From Cystobacterineae bacterium (GTDB lineage: Bacteria > Myxococcota > Myxococcia > Myxococcales > Myxococcaceae): a DNA stretch of 54,900 nucleotides. The notes under the pieces are model-generated. The model worked only from the letters and a program-made list of their open reading frames with translations, had not been told where the DNA came from and searched no databases. Both the position numbers and the translations under genes were made by a program. The stretch lies in assembly GCA_009782175.1 (NCBI GenBank), contig WRKR01000018.1:1-54900 (forward strand), in the 5' to 3' direction. The first letter of the stretch is position 1; the number at the start of each line of letters is the position of its first letter. This document shows positions 25,041 to 51,066 of the stretch, in pieces.

Positions 25041-25213
25041 TGTTTAAAGCAAAGTAGCACGCGCATTGCCCATTCCGGCAGATAAATGAACTTATATGCA
25101 GAACTTGCATAACAAAAAAATCTGCGTTGCGTCTGGAGAAGGCTGATGATAAAAAGGTGCCTTAAACTGCAAACCGCAGCTCAAAGAGGGGTTCAATGAA
25201 AATAAGAGGTTCA

Positions 25214-26473
25214 ATGAAAATAAAGCGCATATCTGCTTTTCTGCTGCTCTCAAGCCTCGTCATGCTCTCTGGAGCATGCACAAAAGAGAATGACAACCAG
25301 ATCAACGCGGTCGATCTGATGAGCGGAATATTGCCCAACAAAACAGAGGGAAAAGCTGCGGATACCCTGTTCATTGAGAATTCGGCGGATTTTTTTGTTC
25401 AACTCTTTAAAAATACAATTAACCTTAAAGACAAAAAAAACGCCCTCATCTCCCCTGTTTCTGTTTGGCTTGCGCTCTCAATGACAGCCAATGGTGCCGA
25501 TAACAACACTTTGTCAGAAATGGAAAAAGTGCTTGGCGGAAGCATTCCCATTTCTGAGTTAAACCGTTATATATACACTTATGTTAATGGATTGCCCAGT
25601 GAGGAAAAATCCAAATTGCACATTGCCAACTCCATTTGGTTCAAGGAAGGTTTTCAAGTTAACAATAATTTTTTGCAAGTCAACGCTGACTATTTTGGCG
25701 CCAAGGCTTATCAGTCAGCATTCGATGACATGACACTGAAAGACATCAATCTATGGGTGAAGCTCAATACTTATGGAATGATTGATGAAATATTGGATGA
25801 AATCCCTCGAGAGGCAATACTCTATCTGATCAACGCCGTTGCCTTTGATGCTGAATGGAAAAATATATATAATAAAACTGCAGTCGGCAAAGGTGAATTT
25901 AACAATATGGATGGTGAAAAACAAACAGTGGACTTTATGGCTTCAGAAGAAGGTGTCTATGTGGAGGACAATCAGGCCACTGGGTTTATAAAGCCATATG
26001 TTAATGACACATATAGCTTTGTGGCTTTGCTGCCCAAGGAAGGTGTTTCAATTGAAAGTTATATTGCCTCACTTTCAGGAGCTGGGTTTATGGACACCCT
26101 GAAGAATGCTCAACAGGAAACGGTCACGGTGCGCTTGCCAAAATTCTCTTATCATTATGGGATAACCATGAATGATGCCTTAGAAGCCCTTGGCATGCCT
26201 GAGGCTTTTGACGGGGAAAAAGCCGACTTTAGCAAAATGACGGCTCTCTCAATGAAAAACCTCTATATCTCAAAAGTTTTGCACAAAGCATTCATCGAAG
26301 TCAATGAGCGCGGCACCAAGGCTGGAGCGGCTACGGCTGTTGAAATACGGCCAGCGTCAATGCCTCCACCTCCTAAAAAAGAAGTTATTTTGGAGAGGCC
26401 TTTTGTTTATGCCATTGTCGACAATACGACAAAACTTCCTATTTTTATGGGGGTTGTGCTCACCCTTGAATAG
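25214..26473 (+). CDS. Serpin lipoprotein (serine protease inhibitor)
   Basis: 419 residues from ATG 25214; an ATG at 25196 in the same frame is equally usable because the ribosome site plus start was duplicated. The signal ends at 'MLSGAC', so it is a lipoprotein. The rest is a complete serpin: 'NALISPVSVWLALSMTANGA' at the shutter, 'LHIANSIWF', 'LYLINAVAFDAEW', 'YSFVALLPKEG', a hinge 'NERGTKAGAATAVEI' with the small residues needed for loop insertion (so probably inhibitory), a loop with 'RPASMPPPP', and the C-terminal 'RPFVYAIVDN...PIFMGVV'. The cleavage residue is probably Ala, Ser or Met of the loop, which would favour elastase- or subtilisin-like targets. The coding DNA is more A/T-rich than the neighbours, suggesting transfer. 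It overlaps the convergent gene by 14 bases. Confidence 0.93.
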   Translation: MKIKRISAFLLLSSLVMLSGACTKENDNQINAVDLMSGILPNKTEGKAADTLFIENSADFFVQLFKNTINLKDKKNALISPVSVWLALSMTANGADNNTLSEMEKVLGGSIPISELNRYIYTYVNGLPSEEKSKLHIANSIWFKEGFQVNNNFLQVNADYFGAKAYQSAFDDMTLKDINLWVKLNTYGMIDEILDEIPREAILYLINAVAFDAEWKNIYNKTAVGKGEFNNMDGEKQTVDFMASEEGVYVEDNQATGFIKPYVNDTYSFVALLPKEGVSIESYIASLSGAGFMDTLKNAQQETVTVRLPKFSYHYGITMNDALEALGMPEAFDGEKADFSKMTALSMKNLYISKVLHKAFIEVNERGTKAGAATAVEIRPASMPPPPKKEVILERPFVYAIVDNTTKLPIFMGVVLTLE

Positions 26474-27356: not shown

Positions 27357-27389
27357 GCGTCTTTCCGCTTTCTGTCATGTGGCGTCAGC

Positions 27390-29666
27390 TTAAGTTTTGC
27401 TTGGCCCCTGGAGGGAAATGGCCTTGTTGCTTTTCTTCTCCATAAGCTCGTCAAACATTAACCCACTGTTGGCCTGGTATTGGCTGATGAGTTTTTTCGC
27501 TCCTCTCCAGGTGAAACTCCTTCCCAAAAACCAACGCGTGCGCTGCGCCGTCAGCACGAGTTTGACGCCATAGCCCCTCACCTCTTCCTCGTTGATGAAA
27601 CGTGGAATAACTTCTCCGTCCACCGCTTTGCGGATTTGCATGGGGGCATAGCCGCCCGCGCAGAGGCAGGGCACAACCTTGTCTCCCACCAGCAAATGGC
27701 CTCCAGGGAATTGCTCGAAAATAGAATCTCCCTGCAAAACATGGCCGCTTGAAACATAAGCAACCAAAGAGCCGCTTGAAACATAAGCAACCAAAGAGCC
27801 GCTTGAAACATAGCCCATTGAAGAATAGCTGCTTATGGGTGCTTGGCCCACAAGCTTTGGCAGCACAGTCGGCACATTCTCTTTGTCTGCGAGCTCGCTG
27901 CCAAAGAATGAATTTTCGAGAATAAAACTGCATAAGCAGCTGCGGACGGAGGACTTGCGGGAAACCAGGCTTGCAAACTTCAGCAACTCAGTTGAGGGGC
28001 GTACCGAGTGGTAGTTGCCGTTGAAGAAAAGGGGCATCCTCCCTCTGCGGAATTGTATTTCTCTTATTTCTCCCTCTATTTTTTGGGGAATAAACGGAAT
28101 CCAATGCAGGGGCACTCTGTTTTGCGCAAGGAAAGAATAGTCATATTCCTCTTCCTCTTTTTCTTTTTCTAATTCATTCCTCTGGGCATCCACAGCGGAA
28201 AGCACGGCGTTGGACAACGCCTTCCCCTCCCAGGTGCCGTCACATCCATCCTCCATAAGCGTTTCTATGCCCCAAAGCATGTTGGCCATCTCGTCGCGCA
28301 GGAGTTGCACTTCTTCAATGGCTTTGCTCTCTTCGGTGCGGCGCAACGTCGGCGGAAAAAACAAACCCTTTTGCGGCATGAAATGGTTGCTCTCATAGGC
28401 ATCCAGCCTTGCCGTCCCAAACAGGCTCCAGCGCTCCGTAAATTCGACATGGGGCGAAAGCTTGTCTGTTTGCTCGGCAGAGCTGTCGATGAAGAGGCGC
28501 TCCCCGAAGGTGTCTGTGACGAGAATGCCTTCCACGTCAAGCACCGTGCCGGCCTCCGCCTCCATCGGCGTCAAGAGCCAGTCGCCACCATACATGGTGA
28601 CGTATTGCATGACGACGGCGTTGGCCAAAAGCGAAAACGTGTCATTCGACGCGTGTCCAAACTGGACTTGGGTGTCTTCAAATTCCCACAGGCACCTCTT
28701 CGGCGCGCCCGGGAAATCCGCAGGCGTTGGAAAATAGGAGAGCAGTTTTTCTTCTTTCTTTCCGCCTTCTTTAAAATTTCCTACGCCGTCGAAGGAATAC
28801 CAGGAGAGCCTCCCGGTGTGGTAGTCCTCCGCTTCATAGGTGTTGGCATTCTCCCCTACCCCCACCTCATAGGCCATTTTTCGCTCATTCCAGCAGTTGT
28901 CCTCCGCCCTCTCCAGGGGAAGGTATTTCTTTCTAAACCACTCTCTATATTCACCTAAGGCATTTTGCAAAAAAACCAGGGAGGGGTGCTGTTGGAAAAC
29001 CTCCCGGTCTAAAGCTTCAAACAATTGATAGCCGTCAAATATTCGCTTTCCATAGGTGGCATAGAGGCGATGCAGGTTGGCATTCTGCTCTGCTTTCAAC
29101 GTCTCTATGGTTTTGTCTTGCTCGGCAACAACAGGGACAAAAGGTTTGAGCGGGAACAGCTGCAAAAGCTGTTTGAAAAGCGTGCTGCGCTGCTCCCTCA
29201 TCTCTTCCACCGCATTGGGGTTGAAGCATTTCTTCTCAACAAGTTTTTTGAAGTGGAGTGCCGACTCTATTCTGACGAAGGGGCTAATGGGCCTGTTGGT
29301 TTTTTCCACCTCATATTCCATCGGCGTGTCTGTTGAATAGTCCTTCCGCGCACTCCCATTGCAACGGGGATAGATGCTGTCCAGCCTTCGCCGGCTCACT
29401 TTGACTTTTGTTATGACGGCAGAGCCGCAGTCTTCGCCTTTGAAGCGGCCGAATTGCCACTGGCGAGTCAGGCTCCAGAGCGGATCATACACCTCGAAGG
29501 AAAGCGCATTCGCAAAGTCTTTCTTGCGCGTCCTCGTCTCAATCCGCGTGTAGAGGTTGCAATTCTCCTTCTCCAACTCTCTGGCTTTGAGCAGTTTCAG
29601 GTATTCATCACTTTTGCTCGGCAAAGCCTCGGTGAATATCCAATGTGTTGACTTATTCAGTGCCAT
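27390..29666 (-). CDS. Conserved large protein of the giant-gene operon (758 aa)
   Basis: No named family is recognised. Cytoplasmic-looking, with no signal or membrane segment. Residues 61-84 hold a block D-P-L-W-x-L-x-R-Q-W-Q-F-G-x-F-x-G-E-D-x-G-S that I recall, with small changes, near the N-terminus of uncharacterised large proteins from actinobacteria and others. The remainder alternates Trp/Tyr-rich and acidic stretches with no catalytic signature. An in-frame 27-bp tandem repeat (27744-27812) encodes YVSSGSLVA two and a half times, a recent expansion. It starts 13 bases after the 1618-residue gene and is followed by the DUF6734-like gene. The ribosome site is weak. Confidence 0.75.
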   Translation of the reverse strand: MALNKSTHWIFTEALPSKSDEYLKLLKARELEKENCNLYTRIETRTRKKDFANALSFEVYDPLWSLTRQWQFGRFKGEDCGSAVITKVKVSRRRLDSIYPRCNGSARKDYSTDTPMEYEVEKTNRPISPFVRIESALHFKKLVEKKCFNPNAVEEMREQRSTLFKQLLQLFPLKPFVPVVAEQDKTIETLKAEQNANLHRLYATYGKRIFDGYQLFEALDREVFQQHPSLVFLQNALGEYREWFRKKYLPLERAEDNCWNERKMAYEVGVGENANTYEAEDYHTGRLSWYSFDGVGNFKEGGKKEEKLLSYFPTPADFPGAPKRCLWEFEDTQVQFGHASNDTFSLLANAVVMQYVTMYGGDWLLTPMEAEAGTVLDVEGILVTDTFGERLFIDSSAEQTDKLSPHVEFTERWSLFGTARLDAYESNHFMPQKGLFFPPTLRRTEESKAIEEVQLLRDEMANMLWGIETLMEDGCDGTWEGKALSNAVLSAVDAQRNELEKEKEEEEYDYSFLAQNRVPLHWIPFIPQKIEGEIREIQFRRGRMPLFFNGNYHSVRPSTELLKFASLVSRKSSVRSCLCSFILENSFFGSELADKENVPTVLPKLVGQAPISSYSSMGYVSSGSLVAYVSSGSLVAYVSSGHVLQGDSIFEQFPGGHLLVGDKVVPCLCAGGYAPMQIRKAVDGEVIPRFINEEEVRGYGVKLVLTAQRTRWFLGRSFTWRGAKKLISQYQANSGLMFDELMEKKSNKAISLQGPSKT

Positions 29667-29679
29667 GGTTTTTCGCTTT

Positions 29680-32600
29680 TCATTGAAGGATGATGGAGCT
29701 CAGCAAAGGAAACAGCGTGGACAACTCCGCGTCCTCATAAATATGGCTTGGCTCAACAGCGCGATTCATCAGCATAAACCGCGTGGAGTCGAGCAACTCC
29801 AGGACACTCTCTATGTTCCACTTCTTCCCTGCTGTGTTGAATTCAGGGTGCAAGGCCAAAAGCAGAGCCTGCGGGGCCTCGTTGCCGGGTTGCTTGCACT
29901 GAAACACCATGCCGGCTGTCTGTTTTTTATAGGGAATGAATTCAGGCCAGGCGTCAATGACAATGGCCGCATTATAGGAGGCCTCCTCGTCTTCTGTCCC
30001 CCACCTGGAAATGGCCTCGCTGTTATAAAGCACCAGCGAGTCAACGTCGTGCAATTCGGACTCTTGCTCCACATGGCAGCCAAGCCACTTTTTGAGTGAA
30101 GTGTCGCCCTCACTCGTCGCTTGCAGAATGGACACTTTTCCGGTGTCGGCATTGCACATGTTTTGAAACATGGAAATATGGTGCCAGCGTTTCATGCCTT
30201 CGCGCACCTCGGCCAACTCGGACTGCCACACTTCAAAACCTGTGTCGCTGAGGTTTTCATAGCGGCCGATGCCCTGCTTCAATACTTCGTCATATTCCTT
30301 TCGCTTCTCTCTGGGCAATGCATGGTGCAAGGTGAAGCGCGGAAACACTTTGAAGTTGTCCAAAGTCAGCTTTTGGATGGCCTGTATACATTGGGCCAAG
30401 GTGCATATTTCGCCACTCATTATTTTTTCGGCTTCACAAATGCGCTCCTCCAATTGCTGGTGGGCATAGGTGAATGCCTCAATAAAGGAGTTTTGTATTT
30501 CGAGGGCTTTGTCGAATGCAGGCCTTTGGAAAATGGGGTGGAGGTGGTATTCTTCTTCGTGGGTGTCCGCGTTTTTCCGGAAAACAAACATGTCCGTGTT
30601 GTGCTTGGGCAGGCTGTTTATCAACCCTGACTCCACACAGCGGCACAACAAGGCATGGACTTTTGCAAGCGTTTCGTCGTCACACGCCTCTTCTTGGTTT
30701 TTAAGGCCCTCCAGGCAGGAGTGCATTTCAAAGTGGAGTTGCGAAAGGCAGGTGTGCAGTGAAGCATGGCGCGCTTTCAACTCCTCCATGTCCACCGCCA
30801 TTTCGTCCTCAGCATCGCTGTTTGCCAAGGTTGTCAGATCGTTGGCCTTCATGGCTCCGCCCTGCAAAACGAGGCTGCGCAGGCGGCTTATTCTCAGCTC
30901 GTTCTCATAGAGGCTGAAACTTTCTGCTTCGTCCTCAGTCTCGTCAACACCACCCCCCTCTTCGTCATTCAACCCCACCTTGTTGACGTGCAAAGTCAGC
31001 TTGTCTGTCCAGCCATTGTTTTTCAGCCTGAAGAGGGTTTCCAAATAGGAGAGGAAGAGGTTGTCATTCGACGAAAAATAAAGGTATTCAATGGGGCTAA
31101 CCCCCAGCTCCCCCAAGGTGCAGCGGGTGTAGAGTGCTTCTTTCTCTTCGCCTTCTTTTTCCACATAGAAATATATTTTCTCTAAGCCCCCCATCAGCTC
31201 CTCAAGCCATGCATTCAGCGAGGGTTCCGCAAGACACATGGGGCGGGCAGGCGGGGTTTTGCACTCGGGGAGGGCGATGGCCACCTTGTTGGACACCACC
31301 ACATATTCCATGGGCGTATCCAGGACGGAGGGCTCGGGGAGGGCACCCTTCCCCTCGGCCATAAACTGGCTGATGGCGGAGAAAGAGGCCCTGTCCCCCT
31401 GCACCAGGCGGTGGACACCTTCGGCGAGCAGCAAGTCGTTCAGGGCATCATAGGAGTCCACGAGGCGGGCAATCAGCTTAAACAGGCATATGCGGTGGTT
31501 GGTTTTTGTGTCAATGTTTGTGGCGCGGTTGAGCTCTGAATACCAGGGCAATGAATAGCGGTTTTTTTCAAGCCAGTGGGCAATGGGCTCTGAATAATTC
31601 CATTTCTCCATGAAGGTGTTGAGCAGCGCCTCCCCATTCACCACCTGCATGACATGCTCCCTGGCCCTCTCGTCTTCGGCGTGCAGGTTGACGGTTTGGG
31701 GAAAGAGTTTTCGGAGCGGATAAACATATGCATCCATCTCGTTTCCCGTCCTATAGGCCTCGTGCAGATGGCGCTCCAAGTCCGCCCCCAAAACAATTCC
31801 CGTCGACATTCCCTCCTGAATGCCAGAAACCATACGCAGCGCCTGGCGCGCACGCATGGACGAGAGGTTGATGCACATGTGCGAGTCGCCTTCGCCCCCT
31901 TTGGTGTTTATATAGGCGCCTCTCAAAATGGCAGCCGTAATGGCATGCTGTATGGACGGGGCGACAATATATTCCCCTTTTCTGCTCCCTAAGTTTTGGG
32001 CTGAGTTTGCATATATGCGCAACTCATCCGACGCGTCCTTGGGCTTCAACTTCATCTTCTGAATAATTGCCGAGCGCTGCTGGCTGCTGACTTCTGTGCG
32101 CGCATTCTCTTCAAGGTTGAAGACCCAACCGAAGGCCCCAAGCCTCGGGGTTTTGTGTCCGGGCTTTGCGTTTTGTGCGTTTGGAGTTTGGGCTTTGCTG
32201 CGCAGCAAAAAGTCCAAAAGCCCCGAAAACCAGGCATCCAGGCGATGGGTGAAAATGTCTAAAAATTCGCTGACGAGCAATTGGCATTCTTCGTCGCTCG
32301 CCTCTTGTTTGGAAAGCGCGGCCCTGGCGACTTCTGCCAACCCGGCCAAGGCATAGGGTCTTCTTCGCGTGCCGCTGGGCATTGCCGTTGGAAACTCAAC
32401 CTCCTTTTCGGAGCCGCTGACAGGCAAGGGGTTGAAAAACCCATGCCCATCCAACGAGGCGAAATAAGGCGGCACGGTGGCATGCTTTGGCGGCAGCAAT
32501 ACATAGCCACCCCAATATGCCTGAGCTTCCGAGAAATCATCCCTTCGGGGCAGCAGGGGCGAGTCAATGAGTGTACGCTCATAGAAAGTGGTGGAGCGGG

Positions 32601-34536
32601 GGGTGAGGCCAACCATCTCCAGGTATTTCGCAGCAGCGTCGCCGCCTTTCAGCGTTTCTGAGCTGAGCACTTTGGCATTGCGAATGCTTTTCCATTTGTC
32701 GGCCAAGGAAATGAGCAACTCGCTCAGTTGTTTGAGGTGGAGCTCATTCTGGGGAATGTGGGCGCCCAATTTCAGAAAGTCTGTCACCGGCAAAATGCCA
32801 TAGGGCTTCCTGCCTATTCTGAATGAAGGCAAAACGCCCCTGGCCTTCACGTGGCTGGTGACAAACTCTCCGACAAAGTCCAGCAAGCTGTTTAGCTTTG
32901 CGTCATCCGTTAGCTTTGCGTCATTCGTCTGCAGGTTTTTTCTGAAATGGCTCCACAAAGCCTTGTTCACCTTTTCGGCATTGCTCATCTCGCGGTTGTC
33001 GAATTTTGCTGCATGCCCCCAACATTCGTCATGGTCCAAATGGAGAATGGCCGACAGCCTTCGGGCGTCATGGTCCGCATGGGGCTCACGCAGAGAGGCT
33101 TCCTTCACCTCTATCTCATAGCGGTGGCGCATCTCCTCTTCCGGGCTAAAACGAATGGCTGCATTTCCCCCTTCCACAATGTTGGTGGGGGTGCCGGTTT
33201 TAAGCATTTCCAACCCGGAGGTATAGTTGTGGCTGTTGAATACATTTTCAAGGCATGCCTCCATTCTGTCGGCATCCTTCACCCCCAGGACATAGACATA
33301 GTTAAATGTTGTAGTCCCCTCCAAAGGTACCGTAATCGCCAACCCCGCCTTCTCCGCTTTCTCATAGTCCACCATCCAGGAAATGCCGCCGCTGACTTCA
33401 AGCTCTCCGTCCGCGTTAATTTTATAGGGCTCCTCCTCCATGTCTTCGCCGGGGTGTATTCCCATTTGAAGGTTTTGGTTTATTTTTTGTCCATAGCGAA
33501 TGAGTTTCTGGTTTTCTTTCCCCTTTATTTCGCCAACAAACATAAACCTGTCAGGAAAAATATTGGAGACGGGGATGTCCGGCTTCTCAGAAGCATTCAA
33601 GCTGCCCATGAAGAAAACGTCGTGCCGTCGCTCGTCGGTGTATTTTTGAACCAAGGCGTCCAGGGAAATCCGCTTCTCTGTGGACAACTTTTTCAGGAAT
33701 TCGTCGACTTCTTTCCTGAAAGTCATCAGCATGGTTTGGTCCACATCCCAAAGCTCCAATGGCCGGTTGTTGCCGCCATAGCCCCCGGGGTATTTCTCAT
33801 AGAAGGCAATAAATGCGTCCAGGCGCCTGCTTAAGTATTCAACGGTGGATTGAATTTCGTCGAATAAATAGTCGACAATCCATTCGCAAAACATGACGTC
33901 GCAGTCTATTTGGAACAGCTTCTCTTTCACCTTGCCCAGGTGCTCGCGTATTTTGCGCTCAATCTCCTTCTCGCCCGTATCCATTTCTGAGCGACGCGCC
34001 AGCCCCCCTGTTTTCTTCTCGTCGAGCGAAATATGAGAAAGCTCCCTATAAATGTCCTCGCAGGCCTCTTCTATTTCCGCCATTTTGGGATAGGGGCGGC
34101 GATAGAAGAGGGGGCCGTCTGTTTTGAAAAATTTGCGTATGACGCCTGGCTTCACCTGCCGAACAATCCACGCCGCACGGTGTGCCGGGTATTTGGTGCA
34201 CAACACCTGCCATGCTTCATATTCGCGCTTTGGGCTTCCGCTGGCGATAAACCATTGCATCCAAAAAAACCTGCCATCGAGAAATTCGCCTTTCGTCAGA
34301 TTCTTTGTCAAACTGTCGATGAATATTTCGTCAGGAAATATTCTCACGCACAACTCTTTGGGAGCACTTAGAGGTTGGCCCGTTCTGTCAAGAGAAGCCA
34401 TGAAGGGCTTGCCTTTGCGAAAATGCGTTTCAATTCTCAGCGGGAAAAGCAAAAGAGGCGTGTCTGCGGAAATGGAGCTCAACAACTGGTTGAATTCCGC
34501 TTCCCTTGTTTTTTGAATGTCGTCTGCAGCGCTCAT
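29680..34536 (-). CDS. Conserved giant protein of the operon (1618 aa)
   Basis: Unrecognised function. No signal peptide. Conserved-looking blocks: 'LLLFPLRIETHF' (28-39); 'LCVRIFPDEIFIDS' (62-75); 'EYEAWQVLCTKYPAHRAAWI' region (105-124); 'RIGRKPYGILPVT' (573-585); 'RRPYALAGLAEVARAAL' (725-741); 'GAFGWVFNL' (800-808); 'IVAPSIQHAITAAILRGAY' (857-875); and 'LGADLERHLHEAY' (916-928). I recall close versions of several of these (R-x-G-x-x-P-Y-G-x-L-P, APSxxHAxTAAxLRxGY, RFERxLHE) from very large uncharacterised bacterial proteins. The C-terminal third is helical and acidic. An 18-bp in-frame duplication gives DAKLTDDAKL near residue 540. Third gene of the operon. Confidence 0.75.
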   Translation of the reverse strand: MSAADDIQKTREAEFNQLLSSISADTPLLLFPLRIETHFRKGKPFMASLDRTGQPLSAPKELCVRIFPDEIFIDSLTKNLTKGEFLDGRFFWMQWFIASGSPKREYEAWQVLCTKYPAHRAAWIVRQVKPGVIRKFFKTDGPLFYRRPYPKMAEIEEACEDIYRELSHISLDEKKTGGLARRSEMDTGEKEIERKIREHLGKVKEKLFQIDCDVMFCEWIVDYLFDEIQSTVEYLSRRLDAFIAFYEKYPGGYGGNNRPLELWDVDQTMLMTFRKEVDEFLKKLSTEKRISLDALVQKYTDERRHDVFFMGSLNASEKPDIPVSNIFPDRFMFVGEIKGKENQKLIRYGQKINQNLQMGIHPGEDMEEEPYKINADGELEVSGGISWMVDYEKAEKAGLAITVPLEGTTTFNYVYVLGVKDADRMEACLENVFNSHNYTSGLEMLKTGTPTNIVEGGNAAIRFSPEEEMRHRYEIEVKEASLREPHADHDARRLSAILHLDHDECWGHAAKFDNREMSNAEKVNKALWSHFRKNLQTNDAKLTDDAKLNSLLDFVGEFVTSHVKARGVLPSFRIGRKPYGILPVTDFLKLGAHIPQNELHLKQLSELLISLADKWKSIRNAKVLSSETLKGGDAAAKYLEMVGLTPRSTTFYERTLIDSPLLPRRDDFSEAQAYWGGYVLLPPKHATVPPYFASLDGHGFFNPLPVSGSEKEVEFPTAMPSGTRRRPYALAGLAEVARAALSKQEASDEECQLLVSEFLDIFTHRLDAWFSGLLDFLLRSKAQTPNAQNAKPGHKTPRLGAFGWVFNLEENARTEVSSQQRSAIIQKMKLKPKDASDELRIYANSAQNLGSRKGEYIVAPSIQHAITAAILRGAYINTKGGEGDSHMCINLSSMRARQALRMVSGIQEGMSTGIVLGADLERHLHEAYRTGNEMDAYVYPLRKLFPQTVNLHAEDERAREHVMQVVNGEALLNTFMEKWNYSEPIAHWLEKNRYSLPWYSELNRATNIDTKTNHRICLFKLIARLVDSYDALNDLLLAEGVHRLVQGDRASFSAISQFMAEGKGALPEPSVLDTPMEYVVVSNKVAIALPECKTPPARPMCLAEPSLNAWLEELMGGLEKIYFYVEKEGEEKEALYTRCTLGELGVSPIEYLYFSSNDNLFLSYLETLFRLKNNGWTDKLTLHVNKVGLNDEEGGGVDETEDEAESFSLYENELRISRLRSLVLQGGAMKANDLTTLANSDAEDEMAVDMEELKARHASLHTCLSQLHFEMHSCLEGLKNQEEACDDETLAKVHALLCRCVESGLINSLPKHNTDMFVFRKNADTHEEEYHLHPIFQRPAFDKALEIQNSFIEAFTYAHQQLEERICEAEKIMSGEICTLAQCIQAIQKLTLDNFKVFPRFTLHHALPREKRKEYDEVLKQGIGRYENLSDTGFEVWQSELAEVREGMKRWHHISMFQNMCNADTGKVSILQATSEGDTSLKKWLGCHVEQESELHDVDSLVLYNSEAISRWGTEDEEASYNAAIVIDAWPEFIPYKKQTAGMVFQCKQPGNEAPQALLLALHPEFNTAGKKWNIESVLELLDSTRFMLMNRAVEPSHIYEDAELSTLFPLLSSIILQ

Positions 34537-34621
34537 AGGGGTTTGCTTTTTTCTATTTTGAAGTGGCTCTCAGAGCGGGTTCAATTGAGGCAAGCTGAGG
34601 CTTTCCTCAAGTGAAACCGCT

Positions 34622-37600
34622 CTAGGGGAGGAAGAGGGACAAATGTTTGCCATAGAGGGTGGGTTGGTTTTTCAATGCCTCCGCCACCTGGGCGGCGTTG
34701 TCGGCCTTCTCCCACTTTTCCAAATGCTCCTTCGAGGCCTCCTTTTCTGGGAATTGGAAATTCAAGTCTTGGATGTCCTCCTGGAAAGCAAGGAAATAGC
34801 CAAAGTCCCCTGCCCTGGGGTTGCCAAGCAACTCACCAAACTCTCTTTTAAAGCCCACCAAAAGAATGTCTTCCCGCAAAAATGCCTGAATGACGGGCAA
34901 GACAATGCCGCCGTTTTCTTCTGTTGCACCCAAGTCGAATTCGAGGCTTCCCTGCGGGGCCATTGCCTTCTGCAAGAAAACCTGTGTGCTGGGGTATTGG
35001 CGCATGAGCTTGCCTTTGAGTGCAAACAGCAACAAGCCTGTTTTGGACTCGGGGTGGTTGTCGCCAAGCCCCCCTTTCCAGGTATGCAGGGGGGCTATGT
35101 CGAAGAAGTTGCCGCTGTGGATGTCGGCGGCGGTGGTTTCAGAGTCCCAGAATTTGCGGAAATAGGAGCCGCGCTGGTCCGTCGGATATTCCCTCCAGAG
35201 CAATTCTCTGCCCATTTCGGTATTCATCCCACAGAGGTAGGCCTCGACGAAGGAGGGGTTGCTTTGAAAGAGGGCGACAGAGTCCTCCGGCAACGCATCC
35301 ACGCAGGGGATGATCCATTTGTCGGAGAACATTTTGAGATAGTGATAAACCGGCTCAGGAAAGAGCGGGTAGGCGAGGATGGGGTATTTTGAATGCAACA
35401 ACTCGTCGATATAGCCCTCGCGCAGCTTTTGGCCTTGCTCGTCGCCACCAAAAAATTCGGCATAATAGGTTTCTGCCACCTGCCGCATCCGCTCATAGGC
35501 CTCGCTGTCTTCAAAACCCGCTTGCAATTCTTTCGCGTCCTCGGTGTTGATGGAGGCTTGCTGCGGCTTTTTGTCGACTTTTTCGGCCTCAATGCTTTTC
35601 ACACACGCATCAAGTTGCAGCCATTCATTCAAATATTTATTTGCGGTGCCGGGATTTTTTTTCAAAAACTCAACATAAGAATGCATGGAAGGAAATTCTT
35701 GAAGGAGCCCAAGCTTTTTTATAATATTTAAATCCACAACCATATAACACAGAGTGTTGCTGGATTCGAGTACCCACGCGCCTGAGCTTGCTGGAGGCCG
35801 AAAGCCAGGAATAAGCTTATCGGTTTCAAAGTCATAATCTGCCTCGGCAACAACCCTGCGGCCAGAGGGGATTGAGCCTCCGCGCCCCTCAGCCTGGAGA
35901 GTTCTGCCCCTATAGACAACGGTGGTTTCAAAATAAGCTGCCCTCTTTTGGGAAGACGGCTCTTCCAATTCTATAAGCGCTTTTATTTGGCTTTGGGCTA
36001 TAAAACAGCGAAGTTGTTCATATCCATCTTCTGTTCCTATTTGAGTGACTTTTTTCTCACTTGTTCCGAAGAGGTTTTGATATTCAAGATCGTCAATAAC
36101 CAAAACACATGGTGTTTCTAAAGGAGTTATATCTTTAGCATGGCCACTGAGCATGGTATAAACGGGGCGCTCCTGGGGATGGGGGCCCAAGCGAAACCCA
36201 TAAAGCTTATAATGTTCCTTTGAGACGAGCTCAGGCCCATAGGAAAGCGGAGGGAGGTTGTGAATTTCCTGGACTTGAGAAGTCATATATTCGTCAAAGT
36301 CATCCGTTATTTTTTTCGGACGCAGCGCATATAGTGTTTGGCTTCCTGGTGTGTTGTCTTTGGCAAAGTCAAAATATTTGGACAGGCTTTTGCATATTTC
36401 CTCAAACAACATGAAATATATTCTATCCGTAGCCTCTCTCAGCTGCTCTATGGTTGGCGCGTTATAAAATACATGCTCTCTCATTTTAAATGTTTGGCGT
36501 TCAGCAATGCTTTCCATCACCGAGGTGGTGTCCAGGTTTTGCACCAACTTGGCAACATTGTCTGTCAAATGTTGGAAGGAGGCGGAGGCAAAGGCCTGGG
36601 GAATGTGGCTGTCTTTCAAAATGGAGGCGAGGGAGGTTTCCCCTTCCGTCTCGGCATCCTTCATGGAGCCAAGGTATTGCATCATCCTCGCGATGAAATA
36701 TTTTTCCGTTTGAGAGAAGGTATTGACGGTTTTGCCTTTCAGTGACTCGTTGACATGGACACTCAGCAGGCGTTGGTGAAGCTCGCGGTTGAGTGCGTTG
36801 ATAGCCTCCACCTGTTTCCAGGCGCGGTTGACGAATTCCTCCTGGTGCGTTTGCACAGTCCTCTTGCCCAGGCCGGCTGCCGCGCGGTGGTGGATGTCGA
36901 GGTTGAGTTGTGACAGCCAGGGCGTGCCGCTTTTTTGGTTGGTGGCCTCGTCGAGAGAAGTCGAAAGCAGGTGCTTGCCGCCATAAATGGGAGGCACCAC
37001 CCAGGGGTCGTCCTCGCCTGCCGGTACACGGCTTGTTTTTGTGGAAATTTCGTCTTCATTCTCCAGAAACACGGGGCTTTTTGAAAGCAAGCTTTTCAGG
37101 CGGCCATAGAGTTCCGCTTCGTCCGCGTTGGCAGAATTTGACGGGAAGGGCGTGCCCTGCACATAGCCTGGCGGCTGTGTCGCCACGGACATGCCTATGC
37201 GTTTGCGTTTGGGCACTTTCCCAAGCACCGCATAGTCCAAACCTTCGCCCATGCGGGTAACATCCACTTGAATGTCCGCCGCGTGCCCTCCGGTGACATT
37301 CAGCTTCTCCACCAATTTGTCAAAACTGTCTGTGCCCGTTTTGAAGTCCCATGAATAATAGACGGGAAAGTCGAGCGCCTGCTTTGGGTGTTGGCTTTTT
37401 TGCCTCTCGAGGTTTGTTTCCCAGGAAGGCTTTTGAGCGGCAATGCCTGAAAGCGCCTCGTCGTCATAGCCTAAGCCGCGAAGCCTTCCTGTTTCAAAGG
37501 CGGGGACGAGGAAGGCGAAATAGTCTGTCTCGCTTTCCAATGCCTCTGTCGTCCGCAGTGCAAACAACCGGGAAAATTCAGGGGCCGCCTCCGTCACTCC

Positions 37601-38137
37601 CTGGGCATGTGCAGACTTCCAGCTGTCTTCGGGAGAAGGAAATATTTTTTCATATTGCGCGTTGCTTTCAACAAGCAGGGTGACATAGGGCTGCCCGTCC
37701 TGAAGTTTCTTGAGGGAGCAAAGCGCTTGGGGGCACACCAGGAGGGCAAGCCAGGGGCGAAGCTTGTCACCGCTTGGGCGCGCAGGCGTATAACGCCAGG
37801 GAAAGTCCGCCTCCCAAAACTCCACATAGGGGTGGAATTGAATGGGAAAACCAGCGCTGCCCTCTTTGGGCGCCACCCTCAAAATGGCCTCCGCGCGCAG
37901 ACTTGCAACATCGCCCGGGCTGACGAATTGTATTTTTTTCGTCTCGGACAATGTGCTGTATGCCGCGCCATCCGCAGCAGGTGTCAACTCGCATTCTGCC
38001 GTCACCAACAAAAGAGGGCGCTGTGTGGCTGGCGAGATGGCACCTGCTTTGCCGAGCGTGTCGGCCTCTGAAAGGAGGTTGCCCAGGCCCTTTCGCGCCC
38101 ACGAGAAATAATATGCGGTTTCTGTTTTTTCTTCCAT
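34622..38137 (-). CDS. Conserved giant protein of the operon (1171 aa)
   Basis: Unrecognised function. No signal or membrane segment. Residues 112-134 read 'DFPWRYTPARPSGDKLRPWL' and then ALLV, followed near 172-180 by 'SWKSAHAQG'. This pair of blocks (F-P-W-R-x-T-P-A...LRPWL-x-L-x-V and S-W-x-x-A-H-x-Q) resembles what I recall from unannotated proteins that accompany the other large proteins elsewhere. Later parts include 'AGLGKRTVQTHQEEFVNRAWKQ' (an R-x-V-Q-x-x-Q-E-x-x-x-x-x-A-W-x-Q pattern). Second gene of the operon, 29 bases after the DUF6603-type gene and 85 bases before the 1618-residue gene. Confidence 0.75.
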   Translation of the reverse strand: MEEKTETAYYFSWARKGLGNLLSEADTLGKAGAISPATQRPLLLVTAECELTPAADGAAYSTLSETKKIQFVSPGDVASLRAEAILRVAPKEGSAGFPIQFHPYVEFWEADFPWRYTPARPSGDKLRPWLALLVCPQALCSLKKLQDGQPYVTLLVESNAQYEKIFPSPEDSWKSAHAQGVTEAAPEFSRLFALRTTEALESETDYFAFLVPAFETGRLRGLGYDDEALSGIAAQKPSWETNLERQKSQHPKQALDFPVYYSWDFKTGTDSFDKLVEKLNVTGGHAADIQVDVTRMGEGLDYAVLGKVPKRKRIGMSVATQPPGYVQGTPFPSNSANADEAELYGRLKSLLSKSPVFLENEDEISTKTSRVPAGEDDPWVVPPIYGGKHLLSTSLDEATNQKSGTPWLSQLNLDIHHRAAAGLGKRTVQTHQEEFVNRAWKQVEAINALNRELHQRLLSVHVNESLKGKTVNTFSQTEKYFIARMMQYLGSMKDAETEGETSLASILKDSHIPQAFASASFQHLTDNVAKLVQNLDTTSVMESIAERQTFKMREHVFYNAPTIEQLREATDRIYFMLFEEICKSLSKYFDFAKDNTPGSQTLYALRPKKITDDFDEYMTSQVQEIHNLPPLSYGPELVSKEHYKLYGFRLGPHPQERPVYTMLSGHAKDITPLETPCVLVIDDLEYQNLFGTSEKKVTQIGTEDGYEQLRCFIAQSQIKALIELEEPSSQKRAAYFETTVVYRGRTLQAEGRGGSIPSGRRVVAEADYDFETDKLIPGFRPPASSGAWVLESSNTLCYMVVDLNIIKKLGLLQEFPSMHSYVEFLKKNPGTANKYLNEWLQLDACVKSIEAEKVDKKPQQASINTEDAKELQAGFEDSEAYERMRQVAETYYAEFFGGDEQGQKLREGYIDELLHSKYPILAYPLFPEPVYHYLKMFSDKWIIPCVDALPEDSVALFQSNPSFVEAYLCGMNTEMGRELLWREYPTDQRGSYFRKFWDSETTAADIHSGNFFDIAPLHTWKGGLGDNHPESKTGLLLFALKGKLMRQYPSTQVFLQKAMAPQGSLEFDLGATEENGGIVLPVIQAFLREDILLVGFKREFGELLGNPRAGDFGYFLAFQEDIQDLNFQFPEKEASKEHLEKWEKADNAAQVAEALKNQPTLYGKHLSLFLP

Positions 38138-38166
38138 AGTCCGTTTATTTTTCCAAAGGCATCCGT

Positions 38167-41100
38167 TTATTTTTCGAGGAGGTGAGCCACTGAGGAATTC
38201 AAGTTGTTGTCCAACTCGCGCCTATAGCGTTTAAAGCCTGTGTTTGTCCTTCGCCGCGACGCCCGCGAAACCTTCACTGCGGAAGGCGCTTCAACCATTT
38301 TTCTGGCAAGGCATCTTAAGTCACCAAACCTTGCCGGTGTTTGCGCAGAAAGCCTGGAGGCTTCGGCCCGCTGTGCGCGGGTGCCTTTTGTCCGGGAAGC
38401 GGCGTTGTCGGCGGCATATTGCGCCCATTTCTCCCAGTTGACGTCCTGGCATATTCTCTCGCATTCCGAAGTCACCTCCTCCGTGTCGCCGTGTTTTTCG
38501 TCGAAGCTTGCCTTCAGCACAAACCCGGCATTCATGTCCTCATAGGAGGGTGCCTTGAGTTTTTCATCGTCTTTAAGCATGCGGATGAGGGTGGGAGAAA
38601 AAGAGGCTTTTGTCTCCTCAAACTCCACCGCCTCATTCTCTATTGTTATGGACTTCAGCTTTATTTTTTTCGCATCCCCTGGGAGTGCCTCTCCATAGCG
38701 CGCCATTTCCTGGTTAAGGGGAATGGCATTCTGGCTGAAAGAAAGCCTGTCCGAAGGTTGCATGACAAGCTCCTGGGTATTCATGGGAGCCATGCCAATG
38801 AGGCTGTCGGCCACATCGCCTGAAACCAGCTTCCAGTTGCCATTCTCATGGAAGTTTTTTGAATAGAGCGGTTTAATTTCGATGTATTTCTGCGTGCTGC
38901 TCTTCTGTTTTTTTCCCCATGTTTGGTTGAAGGCCACTTTAATTTTAATAAAGAGGAACCAAAAGCTGGCGCTGCCTTTTGCATTCCACGGTGCAGGCCC
39001 GCTGAGTGCAAAAGACAAGTTGACAGCAAACAAAGTCCACCCTGCGCATTTGACACAAACGCCCGCGCTGACATCCACCATAAACATGAAAGGGTTGAAT
39101 TGGAAGAGTGCGTTGAAGCTTAGGTTTCCGGAGAGTCCGAATTTTTCCCAGCCTATTTTCAGCTGCACCGCCGCCCCAAATTGCACGGTGTTGGAGGTGA
39201 GGGCGAAATAGGTTTCGAGGGAGAGTTTGAGAATGCCATAGTTAAGCTTCAGGCCCAAGCGTTTCATTTGGCCAAGCCTAAAGCCCGCTTCTGGTTTATA
39301 TTGCGGGTGGAAACCGCCTGCCGACAAAATGAAGCCTTTGGTGTTGCCCGCCCAATAAATCCGCAAGGCCATGTCCCCATAGAGGCTGATGCCCACAATA
39401 TGAGAGTCCACCAATGAAGCGTCGAAAGAGAGCCCCTTTGAAAAGTCTATTTCCCCCATGAAATGGACGTGGATGGCAAGCAGACTTTCGGTGGACTCGG
39501 AAATGGACAGGTGCACTCCGCCCGCAAGCATGAGGGTGACAGGCTCTGGGGCCTGGATGAAGAGGCCCACGTCCACTTTGAGAATTTCCGCCCACGTTAT
39601 TTGCGCGAGGAACCCAAAGAAGAGTTGGTTTTCCTGCACGGGATAATAGGAGGAAATGTTGCTGAGCACGCGCTCTAAGTTTTTGTCCAAATCCTTCGCA
39701 AACAGAATGGAATTAAGGGAGCCGTCACGCACGGCGTTGCGAAGTTTTTCGGTGTCAATTCTGCGGTTGATGCCCAGGGAGCCGCCAATGGCCGTGAGTG
39801 AAAACCCCATCCCCAACTGAATGCCCATTTTGAAAAAAACACTGAGGGCCCCCATGAAGCTGAAGCCCTTGCTCCCATCCGGCATTTTCATGTTGAAGAG
39901 CAAAAGCGCACTGGCTCCGCACAAGTCAAGAATGTTCAGCTCAGCGGCGCCGAGAAATTCCCCCTTCTCTTTATTCCAGTTAATTATTCCCGTCCCCTTC
40001 ACCGCCTCCAGGTTGATGGAAACCCCAACGCCCGTGGAAAATTGAAATTCGGGCGAAAAATCCAAGTCTCCAAACCCGCCGGTGGGCTTCATATAGTTGA
40101 CGTCAACCCCAAAACCCAGCTCGGGAAAGGAGAGGGCGATGCCTTTGAAGTCAACGGAGAGGTTTGTCAGCAGCTTGGCCTCGATATTTTTCAAGTTGCC
40201 ACCACCCAACTCGAAACTCATGTTGCTGAGTTTGAGTGCTGACAAATGAAGCTCGCTTTGAATGGGTATGCGAAGCCTATATTCACCGTCAAACTGAAAA
40301 CCCTTCTTCAGGCTATAGCCCAAGTCGAGTTTTTCGAGGCTGACTTCAATGTCGTTTTTGAGGATGACAGCGAAGAAGTCGTTCAGCTTATGCAGGCGGA
40401 GCTTGAAGAGAAGGCCCCTTAAGCCCCCGAGGTAGCCAAAGTCAAAGCCGCCCCCTGCATAGCCTGCAAACAGTTTCTGCGGATAGTCCTCAAGCGTCAA
40501 CCCGGCAACGTCCGTTTCAAATATTGTCAGCGGGAAAGCACCCGCACTGCCCACCTGCCCCCGCCTGAACAGAAGCTCCACATAGGCAGAAGCAGCTTCC
40601 TTGCTGCTCAGCCACTTTGCCTCAGGAAAGTGCTTGCCATTGGGCGTGCAAAAGAAAAAACCGAGGGCGTCTTCAGCCAGTGCGTCCTTGGTTTTTTTGT
40701 CGCTTTCGGATTTTTGCGTGGCATCATCATTCAGCGCGGCGTTGGCGCTTAAGCTCAACCAATGGCTTTCGCCCAAGTTGAAGCCCGCATCAAAATTCCC
40801 TCGAATGGCAGGCAACACATAAAGCCCGGACTCAATCAGCGCTTCTCCGTCTTCGCCTGTCCCAACCTTTCTGTCGCCAACGAAGGCAAGCAGTTTAATG
40901 GAAACATCGGCAGAGAATTGGCCTCCTTTGAGGCTTCCACTTTCATAGAGGGTGAGGGCGAGGAATTTGTTTTCTATGTCCAGCTTATATTCAGGAAGGC
41001 CAATGCCTTCAAAATTCCAGTTGGGAAAGTCTATCAGCTCGCGCAGGTGGTTTTTGAGCGTGGAGGGAATCAGCTTATAGAGTTTCAGCGCAAACTGCAG

Positions 41101-43788
41101 CCCGTCGCTCCACGCGTCAATGTCTTTTGTTTCTGCGGAAAGCATCAACAGGTTTCGCGCCATTGCGACGGCGTTTTCTGCCCAGGCTTTAGCCTGAAGC
41201 GCCTGCGAAGCTTCGTTGCATGCTTTCTCCGCCTCCTTGGAAAAATTTTCGACTTCGCTGAATATTTGCTGATAGGCGCCAAAGTTCAGCTCGCTGGCAA
41301 TGTTGCTTTCAACATATTCAAGCACGCGAGGAATCAGCTTTTCCTTCACCCATTTTTTCACCGTCTGCTCTATCAACGCCACAAATGGGCGAATGAGCAT
41401 TTTATAGAAGCTTGCTTTCAGCTTTGGCCAATAGGCAACAAACACCTCCCGCGCAAATGCGCCAAGCTTTTCATTGTCGAGTTTTCCTTTGAGGGCCGCC
41501 AAGGGAGCTGTGGAAGTGTTTTCCACCAACATGCACAAAGCGTCGACGGTGGCTTCCTGAAACTTCACAAAATAAAACTCTGCATTGTTGGGAAGCATGC
41601 CTTTGAGTTTGTCGGCAAAGGCTTTAAAATATGCAGAAAAGTCAAACGCTGAAAACGGGTTGCTCAGTTTTTTGCCAGAAATAAGCTCGTCCAGTGAGCC
41701 TTTGCAGAAGTTTTTTATGCCCTCAAAGTCATCGGGCACTTTGGCTGTCTGCCTTTTAAATTCATTTTGAAGCTCGGCAATGGCGCCTTCAAACTTCGCC
41801 TCCCATGTGCCCGATTCAAACAGCGCTGTGACGTGTTTTTCCGCCTCCTCCAATATGCTCTTGTATTGGCCGATGAAACTTTGGCCTATATTTTTTGAAA
41901 TGGACTCTTCAATGGCGGCCTTCCACGCGTCGGCGCTTATGCCGCTCAGCAACTCGTGCTCTTTTGCTTTCTGGGAAAGGACAGCAATGAATTCATCTGC
42001 AAACAGGTTTTTGAGAAAAGAGGTGTCGAGGCCTGAAAGCCTTCTGAATTGAATATTCGTGTTGGGGAGGGTGAAGTTTTTGAGCTTGCCACCTGCATCC
42101 TTGAGTTGCCCCACCGCTTCGCCAAGTCCGCTCTTTAGCTCCCCTATCAGCGAGTCCTTCTTCGACTCAAAATTTTCATAGGCCGCACCCAACTCTCTCT
42201 TCAACCCAATGGCAAATTTCTCGAGGACTTTGAGCAAGTCGATGATGAAATTTTCAAACTGAGCAAACTTCGCTTTCACCTCGCTTGCCAGTGGGTTTAT
42301 TTCGTCGCGAATTCTCTCTCGAATGCGAATGAAAAACTCATAGAGCAACGCTTTGAGCGAGCCGAAATGCGGCAGCTCGAAGTGGAAAGCGCTGGCGAGT
42401 TTCTGAATTTTTTCAAGCAAGGCCTCGGCATCGTCAAAGTCCTTGAGAGGGAAAAGCGCCTTAAAATAGGGGATGGGCTCAGAGAGGAGCTGCTCCAGGT
42501 TGGGCCAGCAAATGACATAGAGCTCAACCGTTGGACAAAGCGATTTGAGCGTTTGGATGGCGCTTTCCGCTACATCTTTTGCTGCGCCGTTCGCCTGCAC
42601 AATGAGGTTGTTAACTTCTGCAATGTTGACTTCGGGAAACGCCGGCGCATTCGGAATATATTTGGCAAGTTGAATGGTTTCTTTGTCAACCACCTTCAGA
42701 AATTCGAGCACCGCATATATGTGGTGGAAGGTTTTGCCGATGCGGTTATAGTCGCCCAACACCTCGCCCAGCAGTTTGTCCAGCTTCGCCTTCGCAAGTT
42801 TGAGACGAACCCGAAGCTCCGCGGAAACCTCTTCGACAAGCGCCTCGCCCGCCGCTTTCGCCTCTTCAGCGAGCTTTTTTGCCTCCGCTGCTATTTCAGC
42901 TTCTATTTCTCTTATTTCGTCCCGCAGGGCTTTTATTTTGTCTTTTGCCTCTTTGCTGAGGCTGCTTTTCACTTCGTCCAGGTGCTCAACAATGGCATGT
43001 ATGTCGTCGGCGAAAACTTCTTTGGCATGGCGCAGCAGCACCACAAAAACATGGTTGAAAACACGCTCGGCGAATTTTTTGGAAAAATAGGTTTCCTGAA
43101 GAAAGCGACCAAACGCTTCATTCTCCCGCGCTATTTTCTCCCACTCCATGTCGCGGAATTTGCGGATGAGGGAAACCAATTCCAAAATCAGCTGAAAAAC
43201 AGCGGAGATTTTGTCATTGCCCAAACTCAAGGAAGCTGAAACAGCATTTTTTCCTCCGCCTTCCAAAAGCTCTCCAAATAACTCCTTCGCCTGGGGCCCC
43301 TCGCCGCCTGCCGCCTCTATGAATTTCTTCGCCTCCCCCATCCAGTCGGTTTCGCCGTCAAATAACTGCTGGATGCTTTCACCCAAAGAAAGCGTCGTGG
43401 CAAGAATGGCGCGGATGTTGTCCGTCAACGTTTTGTTTTTCTCAAACGCGGACAACTCATAGCCCAGCCGCCTAAAGAGGCTTTCAATGAATTTCTCAAG
43501 GAGCGCTTTCCCCTCTAAGTCGGCTTTGAATTCTGCATAACCATAGCCCTCGGCGGCAGGCACATAGCTCGGCATTTCCGCCAGAAAGTCCTTCAGCAGA
43601 GACTCTTGGGTATGTGCGAGGACAATGCCTATGTTTGAAATAATTCGGCCAACGGAAGTTTTTAACAGCTGAGCGGTGTCGCTTGTCTCTTCACTCATGG
43701 CACAACGCTTTGCCTGCTTTGCGGGTGAATTTTGTCTCGCTGCCACAACCCGTGAAAAGCCACCCGCCCCCGGGTGCGCTGTCGTCAT
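38167..43788 (-). CDS. DUF6603-type giant protein (1873 aa)
   Basis: First gene of the operon. The start is uncertain: ATG 43788, or ATG 43698 (MSEETSDT), neither with a clear ribosome site. Three parts are visible. Residues 1 to about 910 are almost wholly amphipathic helix, including a charged Ala/Glu/Lys coiled-coil segment near 275-350. About 920-1650 is a long run of amphipathic beta-strands, containing the DUF6603 signature 'GGSLGINRRIDTEKLRNAV' (about 1330-1350), 'LSNISSYYPVQENQLFFGF' and 'DASLVDSHIVGISLYGDMAL' (about 1455-1475). The last 80 residues are basic. DUF6603 has no known function. No signal peptide or membrane helix is visible. The gene begins about 130 bases past the 3' end of tRNA-Arg. 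Confidence 0.8.
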   Translation of the reverse strand: MTTAHPGAGGFSRVVAARQNSPAKQAKRCAMSEETSDTAQLLKTSVGRIISNIGIVLAHTQESLLKDFLAEMPSYVPAAEGYGYAEFKADLEGKALLEKFIESLFRRLGYELSAFEKNKTLTDNIRAILATTLSLGESIQQLFDGETDWMGEAKKFIEAAGGEGPQAKELFGELLEGGGKNAVSASLSLGNDKISAVFQLILELVSLIRKFRDMEWEKIARENEAFGRFLQETYFSKKFAERVFNHVFVVLLRHAKEVFADDIHAIVEHLDEVKSSLSKEAKDKIKALRDEIREIEAEIAAEAKKLAEEAKAAGEALVEEVSAELRVRLKLAKAKLDKLLGEVLGDYNRIGKTFHHIYAVLEFLKVVDKETIQLAKYIPNAPAFPEVNIAEVNNLIVQANGAAKDVAESAIQTLKSLCPTVELYVICWPNLEQLLSEPIPYFKALFPLKDFDDAEALLEKIQKLASAFHFELPHFGSLKALLYEFFIRIRERIRDEINPLASEVKAKFAQFENFIIDLLKVLEKFAIGLKRELGAAYENFESKKDSLIGELKSGLGEAVGQLKDAGGKLKNFTLPNTNIQFRRLSGLDTSFLKNLFADEFIAVLSQKAKEHELLSGISADAWKAAIEESISKNIGQSFIGQYKSILEEAEKHVTALFESGTWEAKFEGAIAELQNEFKRQTAKVPDDFEGIKNFCKGSLDELISGKKLSNPFSAFDFSAYFKAFADKLKGMLPNNAEFYFVKFQEATVDALCMLVENTSTAPLAALKGKLDNEKLGAFAREVFVAYWPKLKASFYKMLIRPFVALIEQTVKKWVKEKLIPRVLEYVESNIASELNFGAYQQIFSEVENFSKEAEKACNEASQALQAKAWAENAVAMARNLLMLSAETKDIDAWSDGLQFALKLYKLIPSTLKNHLRELIDFPNWNFEGIGLPEYKLDIENKFLALTLYESGSLKGGQFSADVSIKLLAFVGDRKVGTGEDGEALIESGLYVLPAIRGNFDAGFNLGESHWLSLSANAALNDDATQKSESDKKTKDALAEDALGFFFCTPNGKHFPEAKWLSSKEAASAYVELLFRRGQVGSAGAFPLTIFETDVAGLTLEDYPQKLFAGYAGGGFDFGYLGGLRGLLFKLRLHKLNDFFAVILKNDIEVSLEKLDLGYSLKKGFQFDGEYRLRIPIQSELHLSALKLSNMSFELGGGNLKNIEAKLLTNLSVDFKGIALSFPELGFGVDVNYMKPTGGFGDLDFSPEFQFSTGVGVSINLEAVKGTGIINWNKEKGEFLGAAELNILDLCGASALLLFNMKMPDGSKGFSFMGALSVFFKMGIQLGMGFSLTAIGGSLGINRRIDTEKLRNAVRDGSLNSILFAKDLDKNLERVLSNISSYYPVQENQLFFGFLAQITWAEILKVDVGLFIQAPEPVTLMLAGGVHLSISESTESLLAIHVHFMGEIDFSKGLSFDASLVDSHIVGISLYGDMALRIYWAGNTKGFILSAGGFHPQYKPEAGFRLGQMKRLGLKLNYGILKLSLETYFALTSNTVQFGAAVQLKIGWEKFGLSGNLSFNALFQFNPFMFMVDVSAGVCVKCAGWTLFAVNLSFALSGPAPWNAKGSASFWFLFIKIKVAFNQTWGKKQKSSTQKYIEIKPLYSKNFHENGNWKLVSGDVADSLIGMAPMNTQELVMQPSDRLSFSQNAIPLNQEMARYGEALPGDAKKIKLKSITIENEAVEFEETKASFSPTLIRMLKDDEKLKAPSYEDMNAGFVLKASFDEKHGDTEEVTSECERICQDVNWEKWAQYAADNAASRTKGTRAQRAEASRLSAQTPARFGDLRCLARKMVEAPSAVKVSRASRRRTNTGFKRYRRELDNNLNSSVAHLLEK

Positions 43789-50751: not shown

Positions 50752-51066
50752 CTAGCCATATTTGGCGGCGAATGATTCATCCGACATGCACAAATAAACA
50801 ATGAACTCAATGAAGGCGATGATTCCCGGGATTAGAGTCCAAAAGAATAGAAGATAAATGATTCCCTGGAATGGGCGCCCAAGATAGAACTTGTGGATAC
50901 CAATTCCACCGAGAAAGAAGGCAAGAAGGGCTGCGGAACCTCGGCTTTTGGTTCCCGTGGCACGTTTTTGCCGAACACCGCATTTTGGACAAATTTCCGC
51001 ACGGGCATCTATCGCTTGTCCGCAAGCAAAGCAAAAGGCACCTAAAGCTACTGCGGCATCTCGCAC
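50752..51066 (-). CDS. TM2-domain membrane protein with Zn ribbon
   Basis: 104 residues from GTG 51066, preceded by AAGGAG; the longer frame to 51246 lacks family sequence. An N-terminal zinc ribbon CFAC...CPKC is followed by the TM2 domain: 'ALLAFFLGGIGIHKFYLGRPFQGIIYLL' (first helix with the G-x-G-x-H-x-F-Y-L-G signature) and a second helix 'LIPGIIAFIEFIVYLCM'. Such proteins sit in the inner membrane; function unknown. Confidence 0.87.
   Translation of the reverse strand: MRDAAVALGAFCFACGQAIDARAEICPKCGVRQKRATGTKSRGSAALLAFFLGGIGIHKFYLGRPFQGIIYLLFFWTLIPGIIAFIEFIVYLCMSDESFAAKYG

Follow-up and report, generated by a model that had tools for sequence, protein, structure and literature searches.

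A co-inherited four-gene unit built around a DUF6603 protein, with an interchangeable hydrolase gene beside it in many loci

Results

A five-gene run in a Myxococcota contig

The subject of this study is a 54,900-nucleotide stretch of DNA from a Cystobacterineae bacterium (Myxococcota; assembly GCA_009782175.1, contig WRKR01000018.1), which we call the window. Between positions 43788 and 26460, its minus strand carries five intact open reading frames (ORFs), which we name D, A, B, C and E in the order of transcription:

D, 38167-43788, minus strand: DUF6603 protein of 1873 amino acids (aa); Pfam PF20248, E 2.4e-95
A, 34622-38137, minus strand: protein of 1171 aa, unnamed family; no match in Pfam, NCBIfam or PHROGs
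B, 29680-34536, minus strand: protein of 1618 aa, unnamed family; no match in Pfam, NCBIfam or PHROGs and no credible one in the PDB
C, 27390-29666, minus strand: protein of 758 aa, unnamed family; AlphaFold2 model without a PDB match
E, 26460-27356, minus strand: glycosyltransferase-like DUF6734 accessory protein of 298 aa; Pfam PF20508, E 6e-15

A preliminary description made from the letters alone had reported five same-strand genes of these sizes, with intact frames and gaps of 13-85 bases. Coordinates and lengths bear this out, the gaps being exactly 29 nucleotides (nt) between D and A, 85 between A and B, 13 between B and C, and 33 between C and E. The GC content of the operon, ~0.50-0.54, falls inside the range of the window. 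Only D and E reach a Pfam cut-off: D scores 320 bits against a curated threshold of 27 for DUF6603 (residues 1182-1710), and E 55.8 bits against 27 for DUF6734. A, B and C returned zero matches in Pfam, NCBIfam and PHROGs and nothing convincing among PDB sequences, and profile comparison detected no homology of A, B, C and D to one another. The lack of secretion signals noted in the preliminary description agrees with a crude hydropathy screen (not SignalP) of the first 60 residues, which picked up neither a signal-peptide-like stretch nor a membrane segment, be it in the window's five proteins or in any of 71 D, 87 A, 82 B and 83 C homologues.

D-A-B-C is a widespread, co-inherited unit

Searching a genome collection with a profile of A yielded 253 relatives, and the loci of the best 80 were compared. 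The phyla represented by these 80 are Bacteroidota, Fibrobacterota, Pseudomonadota, Actinomycetota, Cyanobacteriota, Chloroflexota, Planctomycetota, Verrucomicrobiota, Nitrospirota, Acidobacteriota, Myxococcota and Bacillota. We counted a locus as complete when profiles found all four families, at >=60% coverage, on one contig. On all 75 such contigs, D, A, B and C follow one another in this order on a single strand, and the median gap is 2 nt for D-A, 11.5 nt for A-B and 4 nt for B-C; most incomplete loci are explained by a contig end or by a gene call split in two. With homologues of the four genes arranged alike in 75 of 75 complete loci, the block in the window is far from a chance arrangement.

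The core proteins are only ~30% identical across loci, and the four families co-diverge: correlations between their distance matrices are strong (Mantel r 0.83-0.92; 0 of 999 permutations) and still reach 0.70-0.83 for pairs below 45% identity. Across 18 carrier genomes, every copy of C sits beside a D (20/20), while D occurs without C in 5 of 25 copies, which largely belong to a sister system keeping a remote A. Plasmids tell the same story. Matches from tblastn searches with A and B pair in the same plasmid records (Streptomyces, Rhizobium, Gemmatirosa, haloarchaea), the annotated regions of these matches read DUF6603-A-B-C in order, and plasmid-borne copies of the core occur in Streptomyces, Nocardia, Rhizobium, Gemmatirosa and haloarchaea. 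D-A-B-C is a real, widespread and co-inherited four-protein unit; the preliminary description had proposed that these proteins are conserved together in distant phyla, and, far from being never adjacent, their homologues are found side by side. Since core loci are also carried on plasmids and the core tree requires more changes than the phyla would, lateral transfer of the core is likely, although the tree by itself is not proof.

Two other origins were considered and rejected. IMG/VR, a possible source of viral kin, holds no relative of A, and the one 'Bacteriophage sp.' record that contains A-B-C, an unverified scaffold from feces, lends no support to a phage. As for a defence island, the window's neighbours are not defence genes, and the flanks of homologues show no enrichment (scattered single matches among 74).

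An interchangeable enzyme gene precedes D

In 58 loci, the end of a same-strand ORF is no more than 400 nt from D; most of these ORFs overlap D or stop at most 50 nt short of it. We refer to this position as the slot. Among 48 slot proteins scanned, 11 are PhoD-like phosphatases, four subtilases (S8), four phospholipases D (PLD), four Nal1/trypsin-like proteins and three M64 peptidases; single scans added further trypsins and subtilases. In another nine, read by eye, His and Cys are paired in a caspase- or CHAT-like setting (for example FIAGHGNPQG...LLSCRAG). The slot enzymes are without an obvious signal peptide, and two haloarchaeal slot proteins have Gly-rich hydrophobic hairpins.

On the core tree, the 48 labelled loci, which fall into 11 classes, require 23 or more changes of slot class, where 10 would be the minimum. 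The Leptolyngbya PCC 7375 copy (locus L115, genome G200) is rearranged to A-B-C-slot-D, and its slot gene, kin of a PhoD-type one, still stands directly before D, which argues that the slot gene and D travel together. Outside the window's clade, then, the locus combines a fixed core with an interchangeable hydrolase gene at a constant position, as expected for a modular effector or a regulated enzyme.

D is predicted to form a long amphipathic beta-meander

The part of the window's D shared by the family is its C-terminal ~720 aa (residues ~1064-1783), and a profile built without the window matches just this part. Residues 1 to ~1060 are a clade-specific N-terminal extension that is mostly helical or coiled. 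To view the family fold we used an AlphaFold2 model of a full-length homologue (L029, 1153 aa), in which a helical N-terminus is followed by ~30 consecutive antiparallel strands (residues 233-888). Its mean predicted local distance difference test (pLDDT) score is 79, with strands mostly at 80-93. Strand faces alternate between hydrophobic and polar well beyond expectation (3.11 vs 1.27; 0 of 2000 shuffles), so that D is predicted to be a long amphipathic beta-meander.

Foldseek comparison of the model with the PDB gave giant barrels as the best matches (SDBC, FimD, SprA and LptD; E 3e-5 to 1e-3). VIA-align of the D core ranked ApoB100 first (Z 16.0 over 322 residues, root-mean-square deviation (rmsd) 11.2), followed by porins and VDAC (Z 11-14), and a viral structure library gave weak tail-fibre-like matches only. 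D resembles ApoB and the giant beta-barrels (porins, FimD, LptD, SprA) in the geometry of its long antiparallel sheet, but differs from them in its low TM-scores, high rmsd and lack of a signal peptide. The modelled meander is barrel-like, yet the N-terminus is not signal-like by hydropathy; moreover, D is also present in Gram-positives and archaea, whose envelopes have no outer membrane of the kind that holds such barrels. Taken together, the model suggests a sheet that may engage membrane or lipid.

The other core proteins are recognizable by sequence motifs: TNPxFVEAxLxGLNHEMARELLWREYPTDxRGxYFRxFW near the C-terminus of A, and DPLWxLxRQWQxGEFxGxDxGSP near the N-terminus of C. AlphaFold2 models the window's C at a pLDDT of 72 and a predicted TM-score (pTM) of 0.70, and this model had no Foldseek match and no VIA Z above 4.1. 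Its residues ~565-683 form a low-confidence insert that is missing from most homologues and that includes an in-frame repeat, VAYVSSGSL, at ~620-650.

The window belongs to a gut clade in which E is an accessory

On the core tree, the window and locus L020 are sisters within a gut clade that also includes Bacteroidales and Fibrobacter. L020 (JAAZFA010000316.1) is the window's closest full-length relative, with 54% identity over the core; it comes from a metagenome-assembled genome labelled Crenarchaeota, which is probably mis-binned. The window's genome has a single D-A-B-C copy, and two genus mates sampled lack both D and A, a pattern that fits a recent gain.

E carries an invariant DTD (D110-T111-D112) in the aligned rows and is 48-56% identical across its group; from DUF6734 and this DxD motif, it is a putative glycosyltransferase-like protein. 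The preliminary description grouped E with the four giant proteins, and as a statement about the conserved unit this did not hold: because E directly follows C in only seven loci, often with a 4-nt overlap, and all seven belong to one clade, E is an accessory of the gut clade and not part of the universal core. A rumen Bacteroidales contig (JAGCYZ010000107.1, L026/L037) contains two complete, diverged D-A-B-C sets in tandem, with E beside the first only.

Around the operon, the window encodes Clp ATPase, DUF6178, CitMHS, Sel1 and FecCD-type genes. A serpin-like lipoprotein gene (25196-26473, plus strand) runs towards E, the two sharing 14 nt at the 3' end of E; that a protease inhibitor adjoins a system with proteases elsewhere is probably a coincidence. 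Two large GLUG-motif proteins, probably surface proteins, are encoded one in each half of the window (15532-17457, minus strand; 50891-53368, plus strand).

A sister system shares D and A

Several of the D copies without C belong to a second type of locus, comprising a diverged D', an A' and an unrelated B' of 1200-1340 residues (L102-L114). The genomes concerned belong to the window's phylum or are among the 18 carriers. By profile comparison, A' is remotely related to A (probability 97.4, E 1e-11 over 194 columns). As the D'-A' pair recurs here with an unrelated B', D and A look like the most widely shared pair. Tail-fibre-like genes lie 5' of D', two of them with a Phage Tail Collar domain.

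Contractile injection systems adjoin the core in some genomes

An extracellular contractile injection system (eCIS) cluster lies directly downstream of C in four Bacteroidota genomes, three of Chitinophaga and one flavobacterial, which represent two lineages. Pvc16 is ~1 kb from C in the three Chitinophaga and ~4 kb in the flavobacterial genome. The stretches from C. filiformis and the flavobacterium include sheath-, tube-, LysM-, VgrG-, gp25- and baseplate-like genes on the strand of the core; eCIS genes at the core, except Pvc16, were identified by eye from sequence motifs. At loci L116 and L117 (genomes G196 and G210), Pvc16, sheath, tube, LysM, VgrG, gp25 and baseplate genes directly follow the 3' end of C on its strand. 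A Catalimonadaceae genome (G194) has its eCIS ~50 kb from the core, and DUF4157-like, caspase-like, MBL-like and NTPase-like genes, assigned by eye, lie between the two (L118-L119) and resemble a conflict-gene cluster.

Four eCIS-core pairs within 50 kb were observed against 0.54 expected, a count in which three of the four come from one genus and for which the marker was chosen post hoc. That marker, Pvc16_N, is present in 16 of the 30 members of one set of carrier genomes and in 16 of the 22 members of another that overlaps it, which makes 23 of 43 distinct genomes. Within the window's phylum, Pvc16 occurs in 10 of 13 genomes with D and in 56 of 180 others (Fisher p 0.0015), a comparison that involves no adjacency and no control for genome size. 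Pfam detects no eCIS component domain in the window's core proteins. D-A-B-C resembles the eCIS of the Afp/PVC/MAC kind in being its neighbour in several Bacteroidota and in that both associate with varied effectors, and the tail-collar genes of the D' systems are a further likeness; it differs in lacking eCIS component domains, and about half of the genomes that carry it have no eCIS.

Discussion

We favour a reading, with a probability of about 0.45, in which D-A-B-C is the fixed core of a modular machine, with a membrane- or lipid-engaging D and scaffolds A-C that handle a swappable hydrolytic effector. The long amphipathic sheet of D would engage or cross a membrane or lipid, and A, B and C would be large scaffold or regulatory subunits, always made with D. 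The gene that abuts the 5' end of D in most loci would supply the effector, an interchangeable hydrolase (several peptidase folds, a PhoD-like phosphatase or a phospholipase D), which the core may store, control or hand over to a membrane or to another cell. The slot is empty in the window's gut clade, where its role may have passed to E, to the ~1060-residue extension of D, or to both. We infer a single complex of the four proteins, for which the slot enzyme serves as effector, and an action of D on membranes; the delivery or lipid-handling machine suggested in the preliminary description is compatible with the modelled meander of D and the eCIS neighbours. A bolder version is possible but doubtful: a bacterial-archaeal machine of four proteins (~5000 residues), by sequence unlike known secretion, toxin or defence systems, that would load hydrolases beside the D sheet and deliver them onto or across membranes, sometimes with contractile injection particles.

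Several observations weigh against a modular machine with a swappable effector. The window's D, like those of its gut subgroup, has no slot hydrolase; the slot classification comes partly from motifs read by eye; and the hydrolases could be partners in metabolism and not effectors. The L029 model has an overall pTM of just 0.48, the structural matches of D have low TM-scores (0.13-0.16) at an rmsd of ~11 Å, and any large beta-sheet yields some such matches and some alternation. The eCIS link holds for a minority only, about half of the carrier genomes are without Pvc16, and Pvc16_N is absent from the window's genome.

The protease slot and D resemble a layout reported for bacterial gasdermins (PMC9079055; also references in PMC12799240). 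A slot protease might likewise cleave D, or A-C, upon a trigger such as phage, so that the D sheet forms a large pore and the cell dies. Proteases of unrelated folds (trypsin-, subtilase- and caspase-like) do adjoin a long amphipathic beta-sheet protein, which in both cases is beta-rich and putatively membrane-active, and the sporadic, partly plasmid-borne distribution would suit a self-killing or defence system. We nevertheless consider this unlikely. A protease lies beside D in many homologous loci, but the PhoD and PLD slots of others are not proteases, none lies beside the window's D, and the ~5000 conserved residues of the four-protein core far exceed the need of such systems. PADLOC-DB, searched with D, A, C and E, gave only chance coiled-coil matches of D (ZorA, E 8e-5) and none for the other three, and the flanks are not rich in defence genes. 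The window proteins have no Pfam gasdermin match, and the fold comparisons of D list no gasdermin, which does not exclude one. Quite unlikely, in our view, is a lipid- or lipoprotein-handling machine in which D is an ApoB- or bridge-like carrier and the PhoD, PLD and protease partners process its lipid or protein load. The ApoB100 belt is the best structural match of the D core, the strands are amphipathic, PhoD and PLD are among the slot classes, and in L106 an LCAT-like match (E 0.0017, short of the cut-off) precedes D'. However, peptidases fill most slots, porins come close to ApoB100 as a match, the rmsd is ~11 Å, and a sporadic distribution is unlike that of a housekeeping lipid pathway.

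The eCIS neighbours raise the idea that D-A-B-C and the slot enzyme are a cargo or accessory module, loaded on or released with injection particles. The four adjacent clusters, the excess of close pairs and the frequency of Pvc16 among carriers speak for it, but with a single genus supplying three of the four, a marker picked after it was seen, large genomes more often having an eCIS, and no Pvc16 in the window's genome or half of the carriers, we regard it as very unlikely. Least probable is a structural or surface/matrix assembly, such as an adhesin or coat, with the variable neighbours as unrelated passengers. Giant sizes, a core without known catalytic residues and the VCBS, lamin-tail and BGTF surface domains annotated in some A, B and C homologues would fit it; the core's lack of signal peptides or anchors (hydropathy screen), and a mostly hydrolytic neighbour that stays within a few nt of D even when gene order changes, do not.

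In Tc (ABC) toxins, one operon encodes several giant proteins that lack signal peptides, together with a variable enzymatic part. D-A-B-C shares these traits with them and with other giant soluble delivery complexes, but its order and sizes differ from those of Tc toxins, and the window's five proteins have no TcA, TcB or RHS match in Pfam at E up to 1. DUF6603 (PF20248), whose cut-off the window's D and likewise the D copies located in carrier genomes exceed, is a Pfam name with no assigned function, and A, B and C, its constant partners, are undescribed. Among open-licence papers, a literature search for DUF6603, PF20248, DUF6734 and co-terms found no described system.

Few conserved four-gene modules that are this large and reach archaea as well as about a dozen bacterial phyla are still undescribed. 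Three protein families without a Pfam model are defined here, and DUF6603 gains constant partners. The arrangement yields a testable hypothesis, that of a fixed core with a swappable enzyme, and cultivable carriers (Chitinophaga filiformis, Nannocystis exedens, Streptomyces and Natrinema) make it directly accessible to experiment. If D-A-B-C proves to be a delivery or killing machine, it would represent a new class.
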